Source: Desulfovibrio psychrotolerans
GTDB taxonomy: Bacteria > Desulfobacterota > Desulfovibrionia > Desulfovibrionales > Desulfovibrionaceae
Assembly (NCBI RefSeq): GCF_013340305.1
Contig: NZ_BLVP01000007.1
Location: forward strand, 62,001 to 126,000
Length of the DNA: 64,000 nt
Reading direction: 5' to 3'
Shown: positions 4,505 to 62,990 of the stretch, piece by piece
Layout: each line of letters begins with the position of its first letter
Position numbering within the stretch: position 1 is the stretch's first letter
Program-made: the position numbers and the translations under genes
Notes under the pieces: model-generated
Databases searched by the model: none
What the model was told of the DNA's origin: nothing
Seen by the model: the letters and a program-made list of their open reading frames with translations, nothing else

Positions 4505-4700
4505 ATCCTCAATCTCTTTGGCTGTGATGCACACGATCTGTGAAGGGGATGAAAAAAGCCACAGGACGAACCTGCGGCAGAAGATGCAAGCACGAAGGGG
4601 GGGACAATACAGATTTGCCCCCTGCATGGCAACCCCTTCCGCGCCGTTCAAAATATGAAGGACGAAACACGGAAAAACCGGCGAAAGCTCTCCGGACCGG

Positions 4701-4732
4701 AAGAAGAAGAAGAAGAAGAAGAAGAAGAAGAA
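4701..4732. repeat. (AAG)n trinucleotide repeat, about 10.7 units
   Basis: An uninterrupted AAG tract of 32 bases ends exactly at the stop codon of the response-regulator gene (stop 4733-4735, read leftward). In transcript sense it is a UUC tract directly after UGA. Tract-length changes would lie outside the coding region unless the stop is lost. Confidence 0.9.
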
Positions 4733-8360: not shown

Positions 8361-9605
8361 ATGCGGAAACTGCCCATCCTTCTCGCCCTTTTGCTCGCTG
8401 CGGCAGGCGCCGGGGCCTGGTACTGGTCTTCTTCCCGCAACGTGCAGGAGACCAAGGTGCTCCAGACGGTGCGGCTCGGAAAGAATACCGTGCGGGCAAC
8501 GCTGGAAGCCACGGGCATCATAAAGCCCGAGGTGGGTGCCATTGTAAAGACGGGCAGCCGCGCCACGGGCCTTATCAGAAAAATGTACGTCCGCGTGGGC
8601 GATACAGTGCGCAAAGGCGACCTTATTGCGGAAATAGATGACCGGGAACAGCGTGCAAGCCTTGCGGAGTCGGAAGCCACCCTGCGCAGGGCACGCGCGG
8701 AACTGGCCCGGGTGGAAAATGTCTACCCCCTGCAAATCAATGAAGCCCGCGCCCAGCTTCGCGCAGCAAAGGCAGAGGCCGACTATCTGAGCCTGAGCCT
8801 GCAACGCAAGACCGAACTGGTCCGGCAAAAGCTCGATTCGCAGGACAGTCTGGACGAAGCGCGCCAGAAACACGATGTGGCCACAAACACCTTCAAAGCG
8901 CGCGAGGCCACCCTGCGGCGGCTGGAGACCGAATACACGCAGGAACGCATCATGTCTCAGGAAAGCGTGCTCGCCGCCGAGGCAGCCCTGCAATCCGCAG
9001 AGGTGCGTATAACCTACGCGTCCATCCATGCCCCCATAGACGGCGTGGTGAGTCAGGTGGCCGCCCAGACAGGCGAAACCGTTGTGGCAGGGCTGGAGGT
9101 GGCGAACCTTATCACCATTCTGGACCCCACCCGCCTTGAAATGTGGATATACGTGGATGAAACCGATGTGGGCCAGATACGCCCCGGCATGCCGGTGGAA
9201 TTCCGCGTGGATGCCTACCCCGGCCGCGTGTTTGAAGGCACGGTTAACCAGATTTACCCGGAACCGGAAGTGCGCGATAACATCGTGTACTATCAGGCAC
9301 TTGTACGCATGACACCGGAAACTTCCGCCCAACTGCGACCGGAAATGACCACCCAGTGTACCGTTATTGTGGAGCGCAAGGATGATGTTCTGGCCCTGCC
9401 CAACGACGCCCTTAAATGGGTGGGCGGCGAGCAGTACGTGTTCGTACGCGGCACCGGCAACGCGGTTACGCGCGTACAGCCCCGTCTGGGCCTGCTGGGG
9501 CGCGACCACAGCGAGGTGCTGGAGGGCCTGTCAGAAGGCGACGAGGTGGCAACCCGCATCCTGCTTCCCGCTCAGGGAGCGGCCCCGGCCCGGAGCGGAC
9601 AATGA
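8361..9605 (+). CDS. HlyD/MacA-family periplasmic adaptor of an ABC efflux system
   Basis: 414 residues. An N-terminal membrane anchor (LPILLALLLAAAGAGAW, residues 4-20) precedes a split biotinyl-lipoyl domain (VKTGSRATGLIRKMYVRVGD and YASIHAPIDGVVSQV). Between them lies a long helical hairpin of about 110 residues with Glu/Arg/Ala heptads, then beta-barrel and membrane-proximal domains. Such adaptors connect an inner-membrane exporter with an outer-membrane channel. The stop overlaps the ATG of the ATPase gene (ATGA), so the two subunits are coupled. The permeases lie 4.3 kb further on, after an intervening symporter locus. Confidence 0.9.
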   Translation: MRKLPILLALLLAAAGAGAWYWSSSRNVQETKVLQTVRLGKNTVRATLEATGIIKPEVGAIVKTGSRATGLIRKMYVRVGDTVRKGDLIAEIDDREQRASLAESEATLRRARAELARVENVYPLQINEARAQLRAAKAEADYLSLSLQRKTELVRQKLDSQDSLDEARQKHDVATNTFKAREATLRRLETEYTQERIMSQESVLAAEAALQSAEVRITYASIHAPIDGVVSQVAAQTGETVVAGLEVANLITILDPTRLEMWIYVDETDVGQIRPGMPVEFRVDAYPGRVFEGTVNQIYPEPEVRDNIVYYQALVRMTPETSAQLRPEMTTQCTVIVERKDDVLALPNDALKWVGGEQYVFVRGTGNAVTRVQPRLGLLGRDHSEVLEGLSEGDEVATRILLPAQGAAPARSGQ

Positions 9606-10372
9606 CAGCGGAGCAGACAATAACCCGCCCGGAACGGGGCATCGCTGCCCCGCATGACCGCTGGGTCATCCGCACCGAGAACCTTACCCGCACCTTCACG
9701 CAGGGCGATCTGGCGGTAGAGGCGGTTAAACCTCTTACCCTGAGCATCGCGCACGGCGAGATGGTGGCCCTGCAGGGGGCATCCGGTTCCGGAAAATCCA
9801 CGCTTCTGCACCTGCTTGCCCTGCTGGATACCCCCACCGCGGGACACTATTACCTGAACGGCACAGACACAGCCAGCATGGATGACGATGAACGCAGCGC
9901 AGCCCGCAACCGGCTGGTGGGCATCGTCTTTCAGAGCTTCTATCTGGTTCCCTACATCAGTGCGCTGGACAACGTGCTGCTGCCGGGACTCTATTCCCCA
10001 ACGTCCGGACGCGAACTGAAGGAGCGCGCCCGCACCCTGCTGGAACGCGTAGGGCTTGCGGACCGCATGCACTTCAAACCCGCCAGCCTTTCCGGGGGGC
10101 AACAGCAGCGCGTTGCCCTTGCCCGCGCCCTGCTCAACGACCCGCCTCTGCTGCTGGCGGACGAACCCACGGGTCAGCTGGATTCCACCACCAGCACGGA
10201 CATTCTGGATCTTTTCCAATCTATCAACGCATCGGGAAAAACCGTGGTCATTGTCACCCACGATGCGAACACCGCTGCCCGCGCCCGCAGGCGTATTGAA
10301 TTCGCAGACGGCAACGTCAGTGCCGACACGGAACAGCCCGCGCCCGCCCTGAATACTTACAGCAATAAATAA
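9602..10372 (+). CDS. ABC transporter ATP-binding protein, MacB/LolD type
   Basis: 256 residues. Walker A is GASGSGKST (about residue 60), the Q-loop VFQSFYLVP, the signature [15 protein letters not shown], Walker B LLLADEPT and the switch His in VIVTHD. The [20 protein letters not shown] segment before the Q-loop is typical of the MacB/LolD/FtsE group that powers FtsX-like permeases. It is coupled to the adaptor by a 4-base overlap. Its natural permease partners are probably the two FtsX-type proteins at 14698-17213. Confidence 0.92.
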
Positions 10373-10460
10373 CACCGCCGCAGCCTCAAGCTTTCCGGGC
10401 GGTTGTCGATACATACAACAGCGTCCGAACAAAAACGCCACACGAAATAAGAGCAACACT

Positions 10461-10632
10461 TTGACAGAACGCCAAGGTGTGCTTACGTATAAAGTTGGAA
10501 GGGGTTCCCGAAGGCGCCTGGTCGCACTTTTCCTGCTACGCCGCAGGATTCCGGCGCAATACCGGAGAGGGGAAACTGCTGTTGGGATACCCGCCGTCTT
10601 CAGGCCGTCCGCAAGGGCGGCCTGTTTTTTTT
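10461..10632 (+). ncRNA. candidate structured RNA or leader ending in an intrinsic terminator
   Basis: After a TTGACA at 10461-10466 and a TACGTATAAAG region comes a stretch with a nested hairpin (GCGCC...CCTGC-TACGCC-GCAGG...GGCGC, about 10514-10557). It ends in a terminator (10602-10632) with a 9-bp stem, GCAA loop and eight T's. I compared it from memory with cobalamin, FMN, TPP, c-di-GMP, SRP and 6S consensus sequences and found no match. It may simply be the 3' end of the ABC transcript, but the 230-base distance from the ATPase stop favours a separate small RNA. Confidence 0.4.
10602..10632 (+). terminator. intrinsic terminator with GCAA tetraloop
   Basis: AGGCCGTCC-GCAA-GGGCGGCCT (10602-10623, one G-U pair), then G and T8. 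It separates the adaptor/ATPase transcript or candidate sRNA from the symporter locus. Confidence 0.88.
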
Positions 10633-10809
10633 CGCAACCTTTCCGGCGTGTTGCGACGATAAGATCAACGGCCATATATCCGCAACCTGCTCCCATGCCG
10701 TCTGTCCAGATGACATGGGCAGACCATTCGCCAAGACCAGCCCCCGCCGCAAACAGCAGTGCCACTCTAATCTTTTACACCGCAGCCCAATTTTTCTTTC
10801 CCTCCCAAC

Positions 10810-10839
10810 TTGACAAATATGAAAATACGGGCGTAGAAC
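10810..10839 (+). promoter_or_regulatory. promoter of the Phe-leader / symporter transcript
   Basis: TTGACA (10810-10815), 18 bases, then TAGAAC (10834-10839). The expected start point, around 10845-10847, falls at the leader-peptide ATG, so the leader may be read from a nearly leaderless mRNA. This fits the absence of a ribosome binding site there. Confidence 0.6.
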
Positions 10840-10846
10840 TTTGCCC

Positions 10847-10954
10847 ATGAACACCCATACCGCAGCCGCGTTCGCGCTATTCTTTTTTGGCTTCTTCTTT
10901 TTTAGCGGCACGCCAGCCTGCGGAACCTGGGTGTGCGCCAAACGGCGCAACTGA
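10847..10954 (+). CDS. phenylalanine-rich leader peptide (attenuator)
   Basis: A 35-residue ORF: MNTHTAAAFALFFFGFFFF (residues 1-19), then SGTPACGTWVCAKRRN. Eight of residues 9-19 are Phe. It is followed 20 bases later by a strong terminator and then by the symporter genes. This is the design of classic leader-peptide attenuators such as E. coli pheL: when charged tRNA-Phe is scarce the ribosome stalls on the Phe run and an antiterminator forms. Complementary segments fit this: 10876-10884 with 10954-10962, and 10917-10924 with 10981-10988. The biology is inferred; the ORF and pairings are read directly. Confidence 0.75.
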   Translation: MNTHTAAAFALFFFGFFFFSGTPACGTWVCAKRRN

Positions 10955-10974
10955 AGAATAGCATCAGACACCCC

Positions 10975-11014
10975 GAAGGGCCGCAGGCACAAACCTGCGG
11001 CCCTTCTCGTTTTT
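10975..11014 (+). terminator. attenuator terminator with competing antiterminator
   Basis: The stem GAAGGGCCGCAGG (10975-10987) / CCTGCGGCCCTTC (10994-11006) is perfect over 13 bp with a 6-base loop, followed by TCG and T5. Its 5' arm (CCGCAGGC, 10981-10988) can instead pair with GCCTGCGG (10917-10924) inside the leader peptide, giving a mutually exclusive antiterminator. It lies 27 bases before the accessory-protein ATG. Confidence 0.8.
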
Positions 11015-11041
11015 GTGGCATGAAACCCGAGGAGGTACGTG

Positions 11042-11206
11042 ATGTTGGGACTGGGAAGTTGGGAGACGGCACTGGCCTTCTGGCTGTGCATCATCTCTGC
11101 GGCGGGATGCGTGGTGTACGGCTACCTGAACTGGAACAATTCGGGCACGCCGGACACGGTTTCCATTGATGACATTCTACCGGACGATGAATACGCCGAC
11201 AAATGA
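11042..11206 (+). CDS. small membrane protein accessory to the sodium:solute symporter
   Basis: 54 residues: MLGLGSWETALAFWLCIIS, then a continuing hydrophobic segment to about residue 29 (one membrane helix), NWNNSGTP, and an acidic tail ending DDEYADK. A strong GAGGAGG ribosome site precedes the ATG. It ends 13 bases before the symporter start. The sequence resembles the short proteins annotated as symporter small accessory protein beside SSS-family genes. It is probably a subunit or stabiliser of the symporter. The second symporter copy has no such companion. Confidence 0.75.
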   Translation: MLGLGSWETALAFWLCIISAAGCVVYGYLNWNNSGTPDTVSIDDILPDDEYADK

Positions 11207-11219
11207 GGAATATGTTGTC

Positions 11220-12827
11220 ATGACCATCAAATTTCTCACCACACTCGCGTACTTCGCCATCGTCTTCTATCTGGGCTACAAGGGCTGGAAGGAAACCAAG
11301 GGCGCAAGCGACTACATGCTCGCAGGCCGCCGCGTAAACCCCTTTGTCATGGCCATGTCCTACGGGGCAACCTTCATCTCCACCTCCGCCATCATCGGCT
11401 TCGGCGGTGCCGCCGGTCTCTTCGGCTTTCCGCTGCTCTGGCTCACCGCCTTCAATCTTGTCTTCGGCATTTTTGTAGCCATGGTCTTTTTCGGCAAGCG
11501 CACCCGCCGCATGGGCCTTGCCCTGAACTGCCGCACCTTTCCGGAACTTCTGGGCAAACGTTACCAGTCCCACTTTCTGCAAAGCTTCTCCGGCGGCATC
11601 ATCTTTCTGTTCATCCCCGTCTATGCCGCCGCCGTGCTCATAGGCATATGCCGCATGGTGGAAGTCTCTTTCGGTCTGCCGTACACGTGGGTGCTGCTGG
11701 GCGTAACCGCCATTGTGGCCCTGTATGTCATCACCGGGGGCATGAAGGCCGTCATGTACACAGATGCCTTTCAGGGAGCGGTCATGGCGGTGATGATGCT
11801 CATCTTCATCATCTTTACCTACTCCATGCTCGGCGGCGTGACCGAGGCACACCAGACCCTCACAGACATGGCCCACCTTATGCCTGAGAAGTTGCAGAAG
11901 GGCGGCATGCTGGGCTGGACGCAGGGGGCCGTTCCCTTCTCGCCCCTCTGGCTCACCATTTACACCACCATTGTCTACGGCGTGGGCATAGGCGTGCTGG
12001 CGCAACCGCAGCTTGCGGTGCGCTTCATGACCGTACCCAGCGACCGCGAACTGAACCGCGCGGTGCTCTACGGCGGGGTGTTCATCCTGCTCATGACCGG
12101 TGTGGCCTTTACCGTGGGCGCGCTCTCCAACGCGGTCTTCTTCAAGGAATTCGGCAAGATCAGCATTGCCATGGCGGAAGGAAACATCGACAAGATCATC
12201 CCCATGTACATTGAGACCATGATGCCTCCGTGGTTCTCCGCCATCTTCCTCATGGCCATGTTCGCCGCCGCCATGTCCACCCTGTCCAGCCAGTTCCATG
12301 TGGGCGGCACCTCGCTGGGCCACGATATCTACGCCCGCGCCATGCGCACCCGTGTGCGCGCGGCGGGTAACTCCATGGCCATAAACCAGATGGGCGTCAT
12401 CATCACCATCCTTGCCACCCTTGTGTGGGCGTGGATGCTGCCGCCCTCGGTCATCGCCCGCGCCACGGCCTTCTTCTTCGGCCTGTGCGGAGCCGCCTTT
12501 CTGCCTGCATATGTGCTGGGCCTGTACTGGAAGGGCATGACCAAAACAGGTGCCAAGGTCTCCATGGTGGGCGGCTTCTCCTTCTCCATGCTCTGGCTGC
12601 TGTTCATCATGGAAAAAGAAGCCTCAGCCATCGGCCTGTGCCAGTTCCTGTTCGGCAAGGCCACGCTGGTGGCTCACGCCACGCCCGGAAGCTGGCTGCA
12701 CTTGCTCCAGTGGGTAGACCCCAATGTGGTGGCCCTGCCCTTCTCCTTTATGCTGGCGTGGGGCGTTAGCGTTTTCTCCACCAGCCTTGCGGAAGAACAC
12801 GTGGAAGCCTGCTGGCAGAACTGCTGA
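11220..12827 (+). CDS. sodium:solute symporter (SSS family), copy 1
   Basis: 535 residues with about 13 hydrophobic segments. SSS hallmarks are SDYMLAGRRVNPFVMAMSYGATFISTSAIIGFGGAAGLFG, split here as the SDYxLAGR motif (about residues 28-35) and the sodium-site region SYGATFISTSAIIG (about 46-59). A conserved RTRRMGLALNCRTFPELLGKR loop follows. It imports an organic substrate with sodium. The Phe leader upstream suggests phenylalanine or a related aromatic compound, but substrate cannot be read from the protein. It follows the accessory micro-protein by 13 bases and is nearly identical to copy 2 over its central and C-terminal parts. Confidence 0.9.
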   Translation: MTIKFLTTLAYFAIVFYLGYKGWKETKGASDYMLAGRRVNPFVMAMSYGATFISTSAIIGFGGAAGLFGFPLLWLTAFNLVFGIFVAMVFFGKRTRRMGLALNCRTFPELLGKRYQSHFLQSFSGGIIFLFIPVYAAAVLIGICRMVEVSFGLPYTWVLLGVTAIVALYVITGGMKAVMYTDAFQGAVMAVMMLIFIIFTYSMLGGVTEAHQTLTDMAHLMPEKLQKGGMLGWTQGAVPFSPLWLTIYTTIVYGVGIGVLAQPQLAVRFMTVPSDRELNRAVLYGGVFILLMTGVAFTVGALSNAVFFKEFGKISIAMAEGNIDKIIPMYIETMMPPWFSAIFLMAMFAAAMSTLSSQFHVGGTSLGHDIYARAMRTRVRAAGNSMAINQMGVIITILATLVWAWMLPPSVIARATAFFFGLCGAAFLPAYVLGLYWKGMTKTGAKVSMVGGFSFSMLWLLFIMEKEASAIGLCQFLFGKATLVAHATPGSWLHLLQWVDPNVVALPFSFMLAWGVSVFSTSLAEEHVEACWQNC

Positions 12828-12835
12828 TACCATCC

Positions 12836-12871
12836 GGTTCCCCGGCGGGCTTCCTGCCCCGCCGGGGAACC
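12836..12871 (+). terminator. hairpin between the two symporter copies
   Basis: A perfect 14-bp stem, GGTTCCCCGGCGGG / CCCGCCGGGGAACC, with an 8-base loop directly after copy 1. The 3' side has TTCTCTCC, not a clean T-run, so read-through into copy 2 (57 bases on) is plausible. Confidence 0.6.
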
Positions 12872-12928
12872 TTCTCTCCCCTCCGTGCAGGGGGCGGCAC
12901 CCAAGCCGTCCGAAAACAGGAAGACCCC

Positions 12929-14536
12929 ATGACCATCAAAGTCGTCACCACTCTGCTGTATTTCGCCGTTGTCTTCTATCTGGGGTACAAGGGCTGGAAG
13001 GAAACCAAAGGCGCAAGCGACTACATGCTCGCCGGACGCCGCATCTCCCCCTTTGTCATGGCCATGTCCTACGGGGCCACCTTTGTCTCCACCTCCGCCA
13101 TCATCGGCTTCGGCGGTGCAGCCGGCCTCTTCGGCTTCCCCCTGCTGTGGCTTACCGTGCTCACGGTGGTCGTAGGCGTATTTATTTCCATGGTCTTTTT
13201 CGGCAAGCGCACCCGCCGCATGGGCCTTGCCCTGAACTGCCGCACCTTTCCGGAACTTCTGGGCAAGCGCTATCAGTCGCGCTTTTTGCAGAGTTTTTCC
13301 GGCGGCATCATCTTTCTGTTCATCCCGGTTTATGCAGCCGCCGTGCTCATAGGCATATGCCGCATGGTGGAAGTCTCCTTCGGCCTGCCGTACACATGGG
13401 TGCTGCTGGGCGTAACCGCCATTGTGGCCCTGTATGTGGTAACAGGCGGCCTCAAGGCCGTCATGTACACAGATGCCTTTCAGGGCACCATCATGGCCGT
13501 GATGATGCTTGTGCTGGTTGCCTACACGTACTCCATGCTCGGCGGCGTGACCGAGGCACACCAGACCCTCACAGACATGGCCCACCTTATGCCTGAAAAG
13601 TTGCAGAAGGGCGGCATGCTGGGCTGGACGCAGGGGGCCGTTCCCTTCTCGCCCCTCTGGCTCACCATTTACACCACCATTGTCTACGGTGTGGGCATAG
13701 GCGTGCTGGCGCAACCGCAGCTTGCGGTGCGCTTCATGACCGTGCCCAGCGACCGCGAACTGAACCGCGCGGTGCTCTACGGCGGGGTGTTCATCCTGCT
13801 CATGACTGGTGTGGCCTTTACCGTGGGCGCGCTCTCCAACGCGGTCTTCTTCAAGGAATTCGGCACGATCAGCATTGCCATGGCGGAAGGAAACATCGAC
13901 AAGATCATTCCCATGTACATTGAGACCATGATGCCTCCGTGGTTCTCCGCCATCTTCCTCATGGCCATGTTCGCTGCCGCCATGTCCACCCTGTCCAGCC
14001 AGTTCCATGTGGGCGGCACCTCGCTGGGCCACGATATCTACGCCCGTGCCATGCGCACCCGTGTGCGCGCGGCGGGCAACGCCATGGCCATAAACCAGAT
14101 GGGCGTTATCATCACCATCCTTGCCACCCTTGTGTGGGCGTGGATGCTGCCGCCCTCGGTCATCGCCCGCGCCACGGCCTTCTTTTTCGGCCTGTGCGCC
14201 TCGGCTTTTCTGCCCACGTACCTGCTCGGCCTGTACTGGAAGGGCATGACCAAAACGGGGGCCAAGGTCTCCATGGTGGGCGGCTTCTCCTTTTCCATGC
14301 TCTGGCTGCTGTTCATCATGGAAAAAGAAGCCTCGGCCATCGGCCTGTGCCAGTTCCTGTTCGGCAAGGCCACGCTGGTGGCGCACGCAGCGCCCGGAAG
14401 CTGGCTACATCTGCTCCAGTGGGTAGACCCCAACGTGGTGGCCCTGCCCTTCTCCTTTATGCTGGCGTGGGGCGTAAGCGTTTTCTCCACCAGCCTTGCG
14501 GAAGAACACGTGGAAGCCTGCTGGCAGAACTGCTGA
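12929..14536 (+). CDS. sodium:solute symporter (SSS family), copy 2
   Basis: 535 residues, the same length as copy 1 and aligned without gaps at a constant offset of 1709 bases. Differences cluster in the first 100 residues (for example KVVTTLLYFAVVF versus KFLTTLAYFAIVF, and LTVLTVVVGVFIS versus LTAFNLVFGIFVA) and around residues 430-440. A block of several hundred bases (about 13530-14190) is almost base-identical to copy 1. Same fold and SDYMLAGRR and sodium-site motifs. It lacks its own accessory micro-protein and is probably co-transcribed with copy 1. This is a tandem duplication kept similar by gene conversion. Confidence 0.9.
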   Translation: MTIKVVTTLLYFAVVFYLGYKGWKETKGASDYMLAGRRISPFVMAMSYGATFVSTSAIIGFGGAAGLFGFPLLWLTVLTVVVGVFISMVFFGKRTRRMGLALNCRTFPELLGKRYQSRFLQSFSGGIIFLFIPVYAAAVLIGICRMVEVSFGLPYTWVLLGVTAIVALYVVTGGLKAVMYTDAFQGTIMAVMMLVLVAYTYSMLGGVTEAHQTLTDMAHLMPEKLQKGGMLGWTQGAVPFSPLWLTIYTTIVYGVGIGVLAQPQLAVRFMTVPSDRELNRAVLYGGVFILLMTGVAFTVGALSNAVFFKEFGTISIAMAEGNIDKIIPMYIETMMPPWFSAIFLMAMFAAAMSTLSSQFHVGGTSLGHDIYARAMRTRVRAAGNAMAINQMGVIITILATLVWAWMLPPSVIARATAFFFGLCASAFLPTYLLGLYWKGMTKTGAKVSMVGGFSFSMLWLLFIMEKEASAIGLCQFLFGKATLVAHAAPGSWLHLLQWVDPNVVALPFSFMLAWGVSVFSTSLAEEHVEACWQNC

Positions 14537-14586
14537 GCCACCCCGGTTCTGACGAGTCTCCGGATTCTATCCTATGCAGCCCCGCA

Positions 14587-14617
14587 GGGCAGGAGTCGAC
14601 CGCTCCTGCCCTTTTTT
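14587..14617 (+). terminator. intrinsic terminator after symporter copy 2
   Basis: GGGCAGGAG (14587-14595), 7-base loop, CTCCTGCCC (14603-14611), then T6. It closes the symporter transcript before the exporter permeases. Confidence 0.88.
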
Positions 14618-14697
14618 GACCGCCTGACTGCGCTGTGCAGCCCAGGATATCTGGCATCGCCCCTTGCCCTTCCTGGGGAAGCGGTTATGCTACCCGT

Positions 14698-15987
14698 ATG
14701 ACGCACCGCCCGAGCGCACCGCCATCCGAAGCACCCCGCCGCCTCTTTGTGCCGCTGCATACGCTGCGCTTTTACTGGCGCGTGTGGGGCGTCTCCCTTG
14801 CCGCGCTCAGAGCATTCCGGCTGCGCGGCCTCTTCGTGGTTGCCGCCGTGTCTCTGGGCATTGCCGCCCTTACGGTCATTGTGGCCGCGCTGGACGGCGC
14901 CAACCGCAGGGCGGACGAGATAACCGCCTCCTTCGGACCGGACGCCCTGTTCATCCTCGGCGGCGACCTGAGCACCCGCGCCGTGGGCCAGCGCTTTCAG
15001 ACCCTCACGTGGCAGGACGTGGACGCCATCCGCAGGTCCCTTCCCGGGGTCTATCTGGTGGTTCCCATGCAATCCATGCGCGACCACACCCTGCGCTACG
15101 GCAACCGCAACTGGTCCGTGGGCAGCACCATAGGCACCTCTGCCCATTATGGCGCATCATGGAACTGGCCCCTCACAGAAGGGCGCGACCTCACGGATGC
15201 CGACGTGGAACGCGGCGCACGCGTGTGCCTTCTGGGGAACATACCCGCCCGCGAACTCTTCGGGACCGAAAGTCCCGTGGGCAAGACCGTATACCTGCAG
15301 AAAATTCCCTTCACCGTGGTGGGCACGCTCAGCGAACGGGGCATGGCCGGGGGCGGCGGAAATCAGGACGACCGGGTCATCATTCCGCTCACCACCATGG
15401 CGCAGCGGTTCGGCATAGACAGGAAGTACTTCCGCGCCCTGCGCATCAAATTTCAGGATGTTTCGCGCATGGATGCGAACATCGCCAATCTGGAAAGCCT
15501 GCTCCGCCACATGCACGGCATACGGGAAGGACAACCCAACGACTTCACCATCCTTTCCGCGCAGGAGGTGCGCAAGTTCCTTTCCATGATCAAGGGCGGG
15601 CTGGCCGTGTTCCTCGGCATTACCGCCTTTGCCGCCATTCTGGTGGGCGGCTTTGTGCTCGCCAACCTGTTCTACCTTTCCGTTTCCGAACGCACGCGCG
15701 AAATAGGTCTGCGGCGCGCCATGGGGGCTTCGCAGGGGGCCATTCTGGTGCAGTTTCTGCTGGAAGCCGTGGCCCTTACCCTTGTGGGGGCCGTTGCAGG
15801 CATGTTTCTGGGCCTTGCCATGGGGCAGGCACTTTCGCGCCTCGGACTCATAGAAATCCGCCTCTCGTGGCAGGTCTTCAGCTACGCGCTTATGGCGGCA
15901 ACGGCGGTGGGGCTTGTTTTCGGGCTGCGTCCTGCCCGCCACGCCGCAGGGCTGGACCCCATCCGCGCCCTGCGGGGAGATGAGTGA
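14698..15987 (+). CDS. ABC exporter permease, MacB/FtsX family (first)
   Basis: About 429 residues. A first membrane helix (LFVVAAVSLGIAALTVIVAAL) precedes a roughly 230-residue periplasmic MacB-type core domain (GTESPVGKTVYLQKIPFTVVGT). Three C-terminal helices follow, with the FtsX signature SVSERTREIGLRRAMGAS. These proteins couple ATP hydrolysis to periplasmic work (mechanotransmission). The ATG at 14698 is the first sensible start after the terminator, but its ribosome site is weak. It overlaps the next permease (TGATG). Partner ATPase and adaptor are at 8361-10372. Confidence 0.85.
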   Translation: MTHRPSAPPSEAPRRLFVPLHTLRFYWRVWGVSLAALRAFRLRGLFVVAAVSLGIAALTVIVAALDGANRRADEITASFGPDALFILGGDLSTRAVGQRFQTLTWQDVDAIRRSLPGVYLVVPMQSMRDHTLRYGNRNWSVGSTIGTSAHYGASWNWPLTEGRDLTDADVERGARVCLLGNIPARELFGTESPVGKTVYLQKIPFTVVGTLSERGMAGGGGNQDDRVIIPLTTMAQRFGIDRKYFRALRIKFQDVSRMDANIANLESLLRHMHGIREGQPNDFTILSAQEVRKFLSMIKGGLAVFLGITAFAAILVGGFVLANLFYLSVSERTREIGLRRAMGASQGAILVQFLLEAVALTLVGAVAGMFLGLAMGQALSRLGLIEIRLSWQVFSYALMAATAVGLVFGLRPARHAAGLDPIRALRGDE

Positions 15988-61748: not shown

Positions 61749-62990
61749 TCAGTCGAAATCGGCGAACAGCGCGCCCACATGTATGTTGCCGATAACCAGC
61801 TTGCGGTTCTGGTGCCGCAGCCGCCAGAGCGCCTGATGCAGCTCATCCACGGAAATACCGTTGCGCACGGCCGTATACGCCTCAATGAACGCCGCCATGG
61901 TGTCACATGCCTTGAGCATGGTGCCGTCCTTGGGGTCAAAGGCGTCCTGATTATAGTGGTTCTGCAGCTGCTCAAAGTCCAGACGCTTCACCACGCCGTC
62001 CACAACGATAGATTCATGAAACTCCGACCCGGTATCAAGACCGAGAAAATACCCCAACCGCCACGCAATGCGCCCATACCCCTCCTCACGCAGCGGCCCC
62101 AGCACCCGCCGTTCCAGTTCGGCGGCCTCGTATTCCTTGATAAAGCCGTCCAGGTTCTCCACCGACTTTTTCACCGGCGAGATGATATCGCGGGTGAGCA
62201 GTTCCGGCAGGTCGTGGAACAGCCCGCAAAAAAAGTTGTTCTGCCTGCGCGCGCCGCACGCCCCCTGCGCAATGGAAAAGAAGTAGCTGTAGCAGGCCAC
62301 AAGAAACATGTGGCCTATGACAGATGTCTCCGGCACGCGCGGCGTCTGCGACCACCGCTTCTGAAACCGCAGCTGCCCGCACAGGTTGGCCAGCCTGCCA
62401 AGAACGTTGCCCGATCCGGCAAGCAGCTCGTTCACCCCCCGCAGATGGGCGTGCGCCTCCAGCCTGCGGGTAAACGTGGCGTCTATTTCCGGAATCTCGT
62501 CATCAAACCCGTTCAGCCCTTTCAGCAGGTCAAATTCCCACTTGCTGGCATACAGATGAGCGGCTTCCAGAATCTCATCCCCCAGCGTCTTCTTGCGGTC
62601 AGGGGCAAAGTAGGCCACAAACCGCTCCCATACGCCCTGCCCCAACGGGGCGAGCACGGGTTCCAACTCTCCCTGCACCCATTGCAGAAGCTGCGAATAA
62701 TGCTGCGGATTCTCCCGTATCTTGTAAAAGATAGGCGGCTTAATGTCCGTTATGACAAGGCGGAAAAAATAGTCAAAGATACCGCCCTCCACAATGGTTT
62801 CGCCCAGCTTTATGCGCTCGCCCTGCAGCCGCCCCTCAGCATTCAGCATAAACAGCAGCCACGCCACGATCATCTTGTGCGCCTGCTTGTCCACCTCCAG
62901 CAATTCCATGGGCCTGAGCTTGTCATTCCAGCGCTTCATGTACGCACCGGCAAAGGTAAACTGCAACAAACTCTTGCGGATATTGGACAT
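61749..62990 (-). CDS. HD-domain phosphohydrolase-like protein (YfbR-related)
   Basis: 413 residues from ATG 62990, which has a GCAGGAG site; the longer frame adds 87 poor residues. The HD metal site consists of SVIGHMFLVACYS (first His), FCGLFHDLPELLTRDIISPVKKS (HD pair, about 275) and a later LKACDTMAAFIEAYTAV (Asp). This matches the YfbR/HD family of nucleotidases, but the 200-residue N-terminal part is unfamiliar. Substrate unknown. Leftward, upstream of the CBS gene. Confidence 0.8.
   Translation of the reverse strand: MSNIRKSLLQFTFAGAYMKRWNDKLRPMELLEVDKQAHKMIVAWLLFMLNAEGRLQGERIKLGETIVEGGIFDYFFRLVITDIKPPIFYKIRENPQHYSQLLQWVQGELEPVLAPLGQGVWERFVAYFAPDRKKTLGDEILEAAHLYASKWEFDLLKGLNGFDDEIPEIDATFTRRLEAHAHLRGVNELLAGSGNVLGRLANLCGQLRFQKRWSQTPRVPETSVIGHMFLVACYSYFFSIAQGACGARRQNNFFCGLFHDLPELLTRDIISPVKKSVENLDGFIKEYEAAELERRVLGPLREEGYGRIAWRLGYFLGLDTGSEFHESIVVDGVVKRLDFEQLQNHYNQDAFDPKDGTMLKACDTMAAFIEAYTAVRNGISVDELHQALWRLRHQNRKLVIGNIHVGALFADFD

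Follow-up and report, generated by a model that had tools for sequence, protein, structure and literature searches.

We analysed a stretch of 64,000 nucleotides (nt) from Desulfovibrio psychrotolerans (RefSeq assembly GCF_013340305.1, contig NZ_BLVP01000007.1, forward-strand positions 62,001 to 126,000), hereafter the window, to which all coordinates refer. Positions 10810-11016 of the window very probably form a ribosome-mediated transcription attenuator, which couples the charging of tRNA-Phe to the expression of an operon of the sodium:solute symporter (SSS) family. Sequence comparison establishes the parts of this element, their conservation and covariation, the conservation of its codons and its homology with the leaders of aromatic biosynthesis genes. 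Together with a change from Phe to Tyr codons between sister operons, these results support an initial annotation, made from the letters of the window, which had proposed a Phe leader-peptide attenuator of an SSS transporter. The locus (Table 1) holds a short open reading frame (ORF) with control codons, an intrinsic terminator ahead of the first gene and a mutually exclusive antiterminator that uses the 5' arm of this terminator.

Table 1. Features of the leader region and of the genes behind it. Positions are those of the window.
Feature	Positions	Strand	Description
-35 hexamer, TTGACA	10810-10815	+	Box position kept in relatives
-10 hexamer, TAGAAC	10834-10839	+	Spacer 18 nt; 7 nt upstream of ATG
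Leader ORF	10847-10954	+	MNTHTAAAFALFFFGFFFFSGTPACGTWVCAKRRN; 35 residues; ATG at 10847, stop codon ends at 10954
S2, 5' arm of antiterminator	10916-10923	+	GCCTGCGG; within leader ORF, 3' of Phe run
T5, 5' arm of terminator	10975-10987	+	Part 10981-10988, CCGCAGGC, also complementary to S2
T3, 3' arm of terminator	10994-11006	+	T-rich tail up to 11016
Symporter small accessory protein, NF045580	11042-11206	+	54 residues; NCBIfam 47.5 bits, equivalog cut-off 35
SSS symporter, copy 1	11220-12827	+	535 residues; PF00474, E-value 6.2e-59, 200.3 bits versus gathering score 22.8
SSS symporter, copy 2	12929-14536	+	94% identical to copy 1

As initially annotated, the 35-residue ORF carries 8 Phe residues among 11 consecutive codons, namely codons 9-19 (10871-10903). 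The pattern TTYTTYTTYNNNTTYTTYTTY has ten matches in the 3.79-Mb genome, this leader and nine TTC/TTT runs on the opposite strand, which look like trinucleotide repeats. At the level of E <= 1e-150, 81 orthologues of the symporter are present in 71 of the 348 genomes of the order, and 78 of them have readable upstream DNA; loci L093 and L097, at contig ends, and L021, the second tandem copy in the genome of the window, were dropped, and L029-L033 duplicate genomes G003, G008, G002, G271 and G090 (L and G denote our locus and genome numbers). The search for the leader upstream of SSS genes in relatives, which had been proposed as a check, was positive: an aromatic-rich leader, called as an ORF with at least 5 Phe or Tyr in 8 codons located 200-420 nt upstream of the symporter, was found in 65 of the 78 loci, from five genera and two families. 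Because the nine other genomic matches resemble repeats and so many orthologues have a leader at the equivalent place, the Phe run is not a product of chance. Both Phe codons are used across the leaders (TTT 322 times, TTC 128 times) and replacement by Tyr breaks the nucleotide tract, so that the aromatic run is kept as codons. A T5-like core lies 26-37 nt 3' of the leader stop codon in all 65 loci, with a matching terminator recovered by a scan for hairpins followed by T runs in 60 and missed or misplaced in L017, L045, L046, L058 and L085. The search with the Phe-run pattern also picked up a trinucleotide run, (TTC)n/(GAA)n, on the minus strand of the window (4700-4732).

In a symporter tree of 85 rows, built by a quick method and midpoint-rooted, with 26 of the 82 inner branches open, the 65 leader-bearing symporters fall within a single group of 68 rows (Shimodaira-Hasegawa-like approximate likelihood ratio test, 96), along with L014 and L082, which lack a leader, and the tandem copy L021. 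The 17 other rows, none with a leader, lie outside this group. Six of them come from beyond the order, the source of loci L034-L044, none of which is part of the 78; these six include L034 and L044, with just 351 and 308 nt of upstream DNA, too little for a leader call.

The terminator is, as initially described, a perfect hairpin of 13 pairs (10975-10987 with 10994-11006), closed by a loop of 6 nt. The fold of 10846-11025 has a z-score of -4.96, none of 200 shuffled sequences being equally stable. The shorter stretch 10906-10995 folds as the antiterminator (-41.6 kcal/mol, z-score -4.83), and when T3 is added to it the terminator prevails. Covariation was assessed in an alignment of 48 of the 65 symporter leaders; among the 17 outside it, 13 share at least 92% identity with a row that was retained, L013 and L049 were set aside by hand, and L015 and L017 are divergent. 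Over the 48 leaders, 95.8% of the cells of the antiterminator (S2 with T5) are paired, compared to 31-45% in slid controls, and two-sided changes occur at 3 pairs in 8 cells: at the first pair, six sequences, each a member of the Tyr-type clade described below, have A-U in place of G-C, and the two other pairs change in one sequence each. The antiterminator had been annotated as 10917-10924 with 10981-10988; the pairing itself is kept, with the 5' arm shifted by one base, to 10916-10923. For the terminator, two-sided changes were found at 8 of the 13 pairs, in 56 cells, and none of 500 shuffles reaches its covariation score or its share of paired cells. S2 is complementary to the loop-side half of T5, with a contiguous complement of at least 7 nt in 63 of the 65 loci, and the last aromatic codon is 8, 9 or 15 nt upstream of S2 in 60. 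S2 falls in frame 0 of the leader ORF in 48 loci, in frame 1 in 2 and in frame 2 in 15; what is conserved is therefore its RNA, not the peptide that it encodes.

Six genomes of the genus of the window (G001, G002, G004, G007, G008 and G009) contain two neighbouring symporter operons, one behind a Phe-rich leader and its sister behind a Tyr-rich leader. In G008, the Phe-type leader (L026) reads MNKLNTNFFFAFFGFRGIQACGSVECVRA and the Tyr-type leader (L006) reads MNTINHHMNSYFYAYYGYRVIKTCGSVECV, with Tyr at most of the former Phe positions. From Phe to Tyr, the paralogues retain the shared frame of peptide and RNA switch, and the pyrimidine tract is broken. The Phe-type and Tyr-type symporters form sister clades in the tree; the leader of L015, from another family, mixes Phe and Tyr. 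The alignment has 31 columns that are fixed within each sister clade and differ between the two, one of them only a gap at the start codon; A190V and F297Y stand out. At both positions nearly all Phe-type symporters match the residue of the Phe sister, and the leader-lacking rows have V at 190 in 10 of 19 cases and Y at 297 likewise in 10 of 19. Profile alignments with SGLT and vSGLT did not place residues 190 and 297 convincingly, and we make no claim about a substrate site. The change from Phe to Tyr codons is most simply read as divergence of substrate, with the paralogue behind the Tyr leader predicted to import Tyr.

The set of attenuators is wider than the symporter locus to which the initial annotation was confined. 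A covariance model built from the symporter leaders alone (R1) hits 320 of the 348 genomes of the order at E <= 0.01, versus the 71 that hold the symporter, a loose cut-off, given that the third match in the window's own genome spans the terminator end only. We considered 61 full-length matches away from the symporter, 60 of them distinct (L216 equals L257), namely the second match of the window's own genome and 59 others drawn from the best-scoring matches listed, which is a non-random sample. All 61 have an aromatic-rich leader ORF, and ADTH synthase is encoded downstream of 59 of the 60 distinct matches, as recognized by motif or tblastn, the remaining one lying at a contig end. Three fetched examples and two copies from the window's own genome, one protein being common to both sets, exceed the TIGR01949 equivalog cut-off for ADTH synthase. 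The codon composition of these leaders differs with the genes behind them. All 30 distinct leaders with a DHQ synthase II motif downstream contain Phe, Tyr and Trp codons, whereas those preceding a stand-alone ADTH synthase (defined by the absence of this motif from the fetched stretch) are Phe-rich, with a Trp codon in only 1 of 26, where it lies 3' of S2. The difference in Trp presence is significant when related genomes are taken as independent (Fisher p 5e-15; table without the operon-type L192 and without L231, L244 and L252). The second leader of the genome to which the window belongs (EFYFWYYFSY) stands ahead of genes for two ADTH synthases, DHQ synthase II, prephenate dehydratase and AroA, and the operon further holds prephenate dehydrogenase-like and TrpE-like proteins. 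A tandem pair of ADTH synthase genes opens the aro-phe-tyr-trp operon of this genome behind a single F/Y/W leader (L192/L268; G000:C10:24900-34500), and G285, G310 and G311 are among the relatives in which one ADTH synthase copy stands apart with a Phe leader of its own.

A survey of the phylum yielded R1 matches at E <= 1e-6 in 14 of 198 genomes, 8 of them outside the order. Five of these 8 matches stand in front of a gene for the enzyme that opens the aromatic pathway, namely ADTH synthase (L269 and L275) or DAHP synthase (L272, L274 and L276). As for the others, L273, which was scanned, and L271, judged by its like sequence, have a Phe/Tyr-rich leader and a similar terminator before a gene for an MBL-fold hydrolase, and L270 is a full-length match without a clear aromatic run before an EamA-family transporter gene.

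As a model built from symporter leaders alone finds homologous leaders before ADTH synthase genes, the symporter is probably a member of an aromatic attenuation regulon. Because the leaders of biosynthesis genes have a far wider distribution, control of the symporter looks like the recruitment of a biosynthetic attenuator within the leader-bearing group, a direction that this distribution suggests. We think it likely that across the order, and apparently in parts of the phylum, one homologous family of codon-tunable attenuators, starting without an untranslated leader and lacking a general protector hairpin, controls aromatic supply, with the leader codons labelling the product or import of the gene behind them. 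In this likely scheme a shared RNA core would serve the aro-phe-tyr-trp operon with F, Y and W codons, the Phe-type ADTH synthase with F codons, and the symporter with F codons and, after duplication, Y codons. The scheme further points to a role in the response to Phe for one of the two kinds of ADTH synthase, for which the feedback-specific DAHP synthases of enterobacteria provide a parallel.

In the homologous biosynthetic leaders the control codons match the pathway; for the symporter we infer the substrate from them, copy 1 being a predicted importer of aromatic amino acids. Alternatively, the attenuator may be real and the symporter may carry another compound tied to aromatic status, such as an aromatic precursor, a peptide or a degradation product. 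Consistent with this alternative, the symporter stays below the cut-off of each substrate-specific NCBIfam model that it matches, reaching 198.6 of the 515.5 bits of the equivalog cut-off for the PutP sodium/proline symporter (TIGR02121) and 169.4 of 328.05 bits for PanF. It is nevertheless unlikely in view of the homologous leaders in front of aromatic biosynthesis genes and of the codon switch between sister symporters, for which substrate divergence is the simplest reading.

Another way to arrange the RNA would be the classical four-segment layout of enterobacterial trpL or pheL, in which segments 1 and 2 form a protector hairpin. In the full-length fold from the window, the S2 region is paired with two motifs of the 5' codons, ACACCCA and CCGCAGC. 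Some loci also show pairing of nascent S2 with upstream RNA when folding is modelled, at 0.07-0.57 in L023-L028, 0.74 in L090, 0.50 in L015 and L017 and 0.37 in L091. However, the mean of this pairing over the 65 loci is 0.07, and the candidate for a general protector hairpin (CCGCA with TGCGG) was rejected, with 34% of cells paired over the 48 leaders and 27-48% in slid controls. The classical hairpin is thus not general, and we regard the four-segment arrangement as quite improbable. The pairing of 10876-10884 with 10954-10962, which had been annotated as one of three complementary segments, is present in the window and not conserved, with 53.9% of cells paired versus 46-53% in slid controls and 15 of 500 shuffles as high; among the three stems put forward for a covariation check, only the terminator and the antiterminator covary. 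A known Rfam leader family, Phe_leader included, was likewise rejected, as nothing in the window or in nine loci matched at gathering score; the best sub-threshold match in 10790-11060 is BjrC68 (24.3 versus a cut-off of 39 bits).

The promoter places the start of the RNA close to the start codon of the leader. TTGAC lies 35-38 nt upstream of the leader ATG in 64 of the 65 symporter leaders (63 as first scored, the 64th with an upstream start codon for L008); among the 63, the distance is 36 nt in 33 and 37 nt in 19. By simple arithmetic, some 0.4% of random sequences would carry TTGAC at any one of four positions. All 64 leaders with the box have a TA-hexamer 6-8 nt upstream of ATG at a spacing of 17-18, the hexamer being the best of four spacings per leader and the ATG having been picked among in-frame ATGs partly by its distance from the box, both of which favour this geometry. 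Shine-Dalgarno-like 4-mers precede 8 of the 65 leaders versus 50 of 62 accessory genes. Given the box, the hexamer spacing and the rarity of Shine-Dalgarno-like 4-mers, the leader RNA probably starts with the leader AUG itself or no more than 1-2 nt away from it.

The following order of events, Phe dependence and starvation-dependent read-through can be inferred. With transcription probably starting at the leader AUG or beside it, a ribosome would load at the 5' end of the RNA directly behind the polymerase; this start position may synchronize the two. With ample Phe-tRNA, the ribosome would pass codons 9-19 and mask S2 as T5 and T3 emerge, and the terminator would form. With scarce Phe-tRNA, it would stall in the Phe run, leaving S2 free to pair with T5 (10981-10988) before T3 exists. 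Once this antiterminator is formed, transcription would proceed into the operon, presumed to comprise the accessory protein and both symporters, and the expressed symporter would import Phe, or Tyr in the case of the paralogue with the Tyr leader. According to the folding model, S2 paired with T5 dominates without a ribosome, and in the simplest scheme termination must therefore depend on masking by a moving ribosome. S2 starts 27-39 nt before the end of the ORF in 63 of the 65 loci (16 in L015 and 25 in L017), which would make this a masking in passage and not at rest on the stop codon.

Several observations weigh against the attenuation reading. Thirteen of the 78 orthologues have no leader (L014, L016, L019, L020, L082, L086, L087, L088, L092, L094, L095, L096 and L098), the finding that had been named in advance as damaging; in the tree, L014 and L082 fall within the leader-bearing group and the other 11 elsewhere. 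Four relatives from beyond the order (L035-L038) lack a leader too. The two most divergent leaders, L015 and L017, are outside the covariation alignment, and L017 has neither a TTGAC box nor a modelled pairing of S2 with T5, a pairing that contains a mismatch in L018 and L091. Six of the 8 two-sided cells of the antiterminator come from the Tyr-type clade and reflect few events, perhaps one, and two of the five measures for the terminator, its counts of two-sided pairs and of further pair types, do not stand out (equalled or exceeded in 44 and 333 of 500 shuffles, respectively). At rest on the stop codon, a ribosome would mask S2 only in part or not at all, given the distances above. The 1:2 hairpin is not conserved. 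The ribosome-stall folding model gives no support to an attenuation switch, as its two states are not separated: pairing of S2 with T5 averages 0.77 over the 65 loci in the ribosome-free state and 0.84 in the stalled state. The putative start at the AUG is drawn from sequence, and the biosynthetic leaders are less uniform in this respect, with 35-38 nt between box and ATG in 50 of 61, 39-40 nt in nine and 25 nt in one, and no box in the remaining one, which is that of the window's own genome. Attenuation through the supply of charged tRNA-Phe nevertheless accounts for the locus far better than a ribosome-arrest (nascent chain) or tract-binding element sensing pyrimidine-rich RNA or a hydrophobic peptide, which is very improbable: Phe runs do yield such tracts and peptides, but the Tyr-type and F/Y/W leaders break the tract and alter the peptide with S2, T5 and T3 retained, and the codon composition tracks the regulated gene.

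The element resembles pheL-pheA of Escherichia coli in the Phe-rich leader peptide, the downstream terminator and the mutually exclusive antiterminator, and differs from it in having a transporter operon as target, a probably leaderless start, no general 1:2 hairpin and no match in Rfam. Another attenuator leader peptide, peTrpL, has Trp codons and belongs to trp biosynthesis, and its RNA is believed to start at the AUG, that is, to be leaderless; by description alone, our leader is like it in the putatively leaderless RNA and unlike it in codons and genes. The published systems are peTrpL of Sinorhizobium meliloti (PMC7298713), pheA, which is listed as attenuated in E. coli (PMC1183508), and bmrCD of Bacillus subtilis (PMC4191407), which shares with the present locus the ribosome-mediated attenuation of a transporter, although bmrCD is of the ABC multidrug type and triggered by antibiotics. 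For Desulfovibrio vulgaris, Table 7 of Song et al. 2005 (PMC1173090) gives a putative attenuator before the aroA'-aroB'-aroQ-pheA-aroF-tyrA-trp supraoperon, very likely corresponding to the F/Y/W leader that we describe in front of the ADTH synthase operon; in the relevant passages of that paper it is predicted only, the term "leader peptide" is not mentioned and no transporter is included. Among titles and abstract openings from the open-licence literature, a scope in which subscription journals mostly do not figure, we found no report of the present leader, of attenuation of an SSS symporter or of a leader peptide before the D. vulgaris supraoperon, the entry in Table 7 of Song et al. coming nearest. 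We rate the principle, ribosome-mediated attenuation, as known and, as new, the SSS target, the probably leaderless start, the lack of a general protector hairpin and a codon composition that follows the controlled gene. The leader codons provide a substrate prediction, Phe and, for the paralogue, Tyr, for an SSS subfamily and its accessory protein that is independent of homology with characterized transporters. The change of control codons after duplication, with the RNA switch constant, makes codon specificity directly testable, and the putative translation from the first base of the RNA suggests a route to ribosome-polymerase coupling without a protector hairpin.

The AlphaFold2 model of symporter copy 1 has a mean predicted local distance difference test score (pLDDT) of 84.1, and the top folds in PDB are SGLT2, SGLT1 and the sialic acid symporter 5nv9. 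For copy 2, no leader or accessory gene of its own was seen. In the gap that separates the symporter genes (12828-12928), a long inverted repeat, rich in G+C and without a T run, is recognizable by eye and may serve RNA processing or stability. A copy of the accessory protein NF045580 was also found at L159 (G100:C43), with no symporter ORF recognized by eye in the 6 kb of sequence inspected. Upstream of the leader promoter, a strong terminator with a tail of 8 T (10601-10624) closes the intergenic stretch 10480-10624, which possibly encodes a small RNA; its comparison with Rfam gave sub-threshold matches only, the best at 21.7 of 50 bits. The whole cassette sits between a gene for an ABC exporter ATPase (to 10372) and one for a MacB-like permease (from 14635), in a region spanning 8361-15987, and the ORF upstream of the ATPase gene looks like an HlyD-type partner. 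The same flanking genes occur beside the cassette in relatives, the ATPase in L003, L004 and L029 and the permease in L004, L005, L006, L022, L029, L030 and L031.

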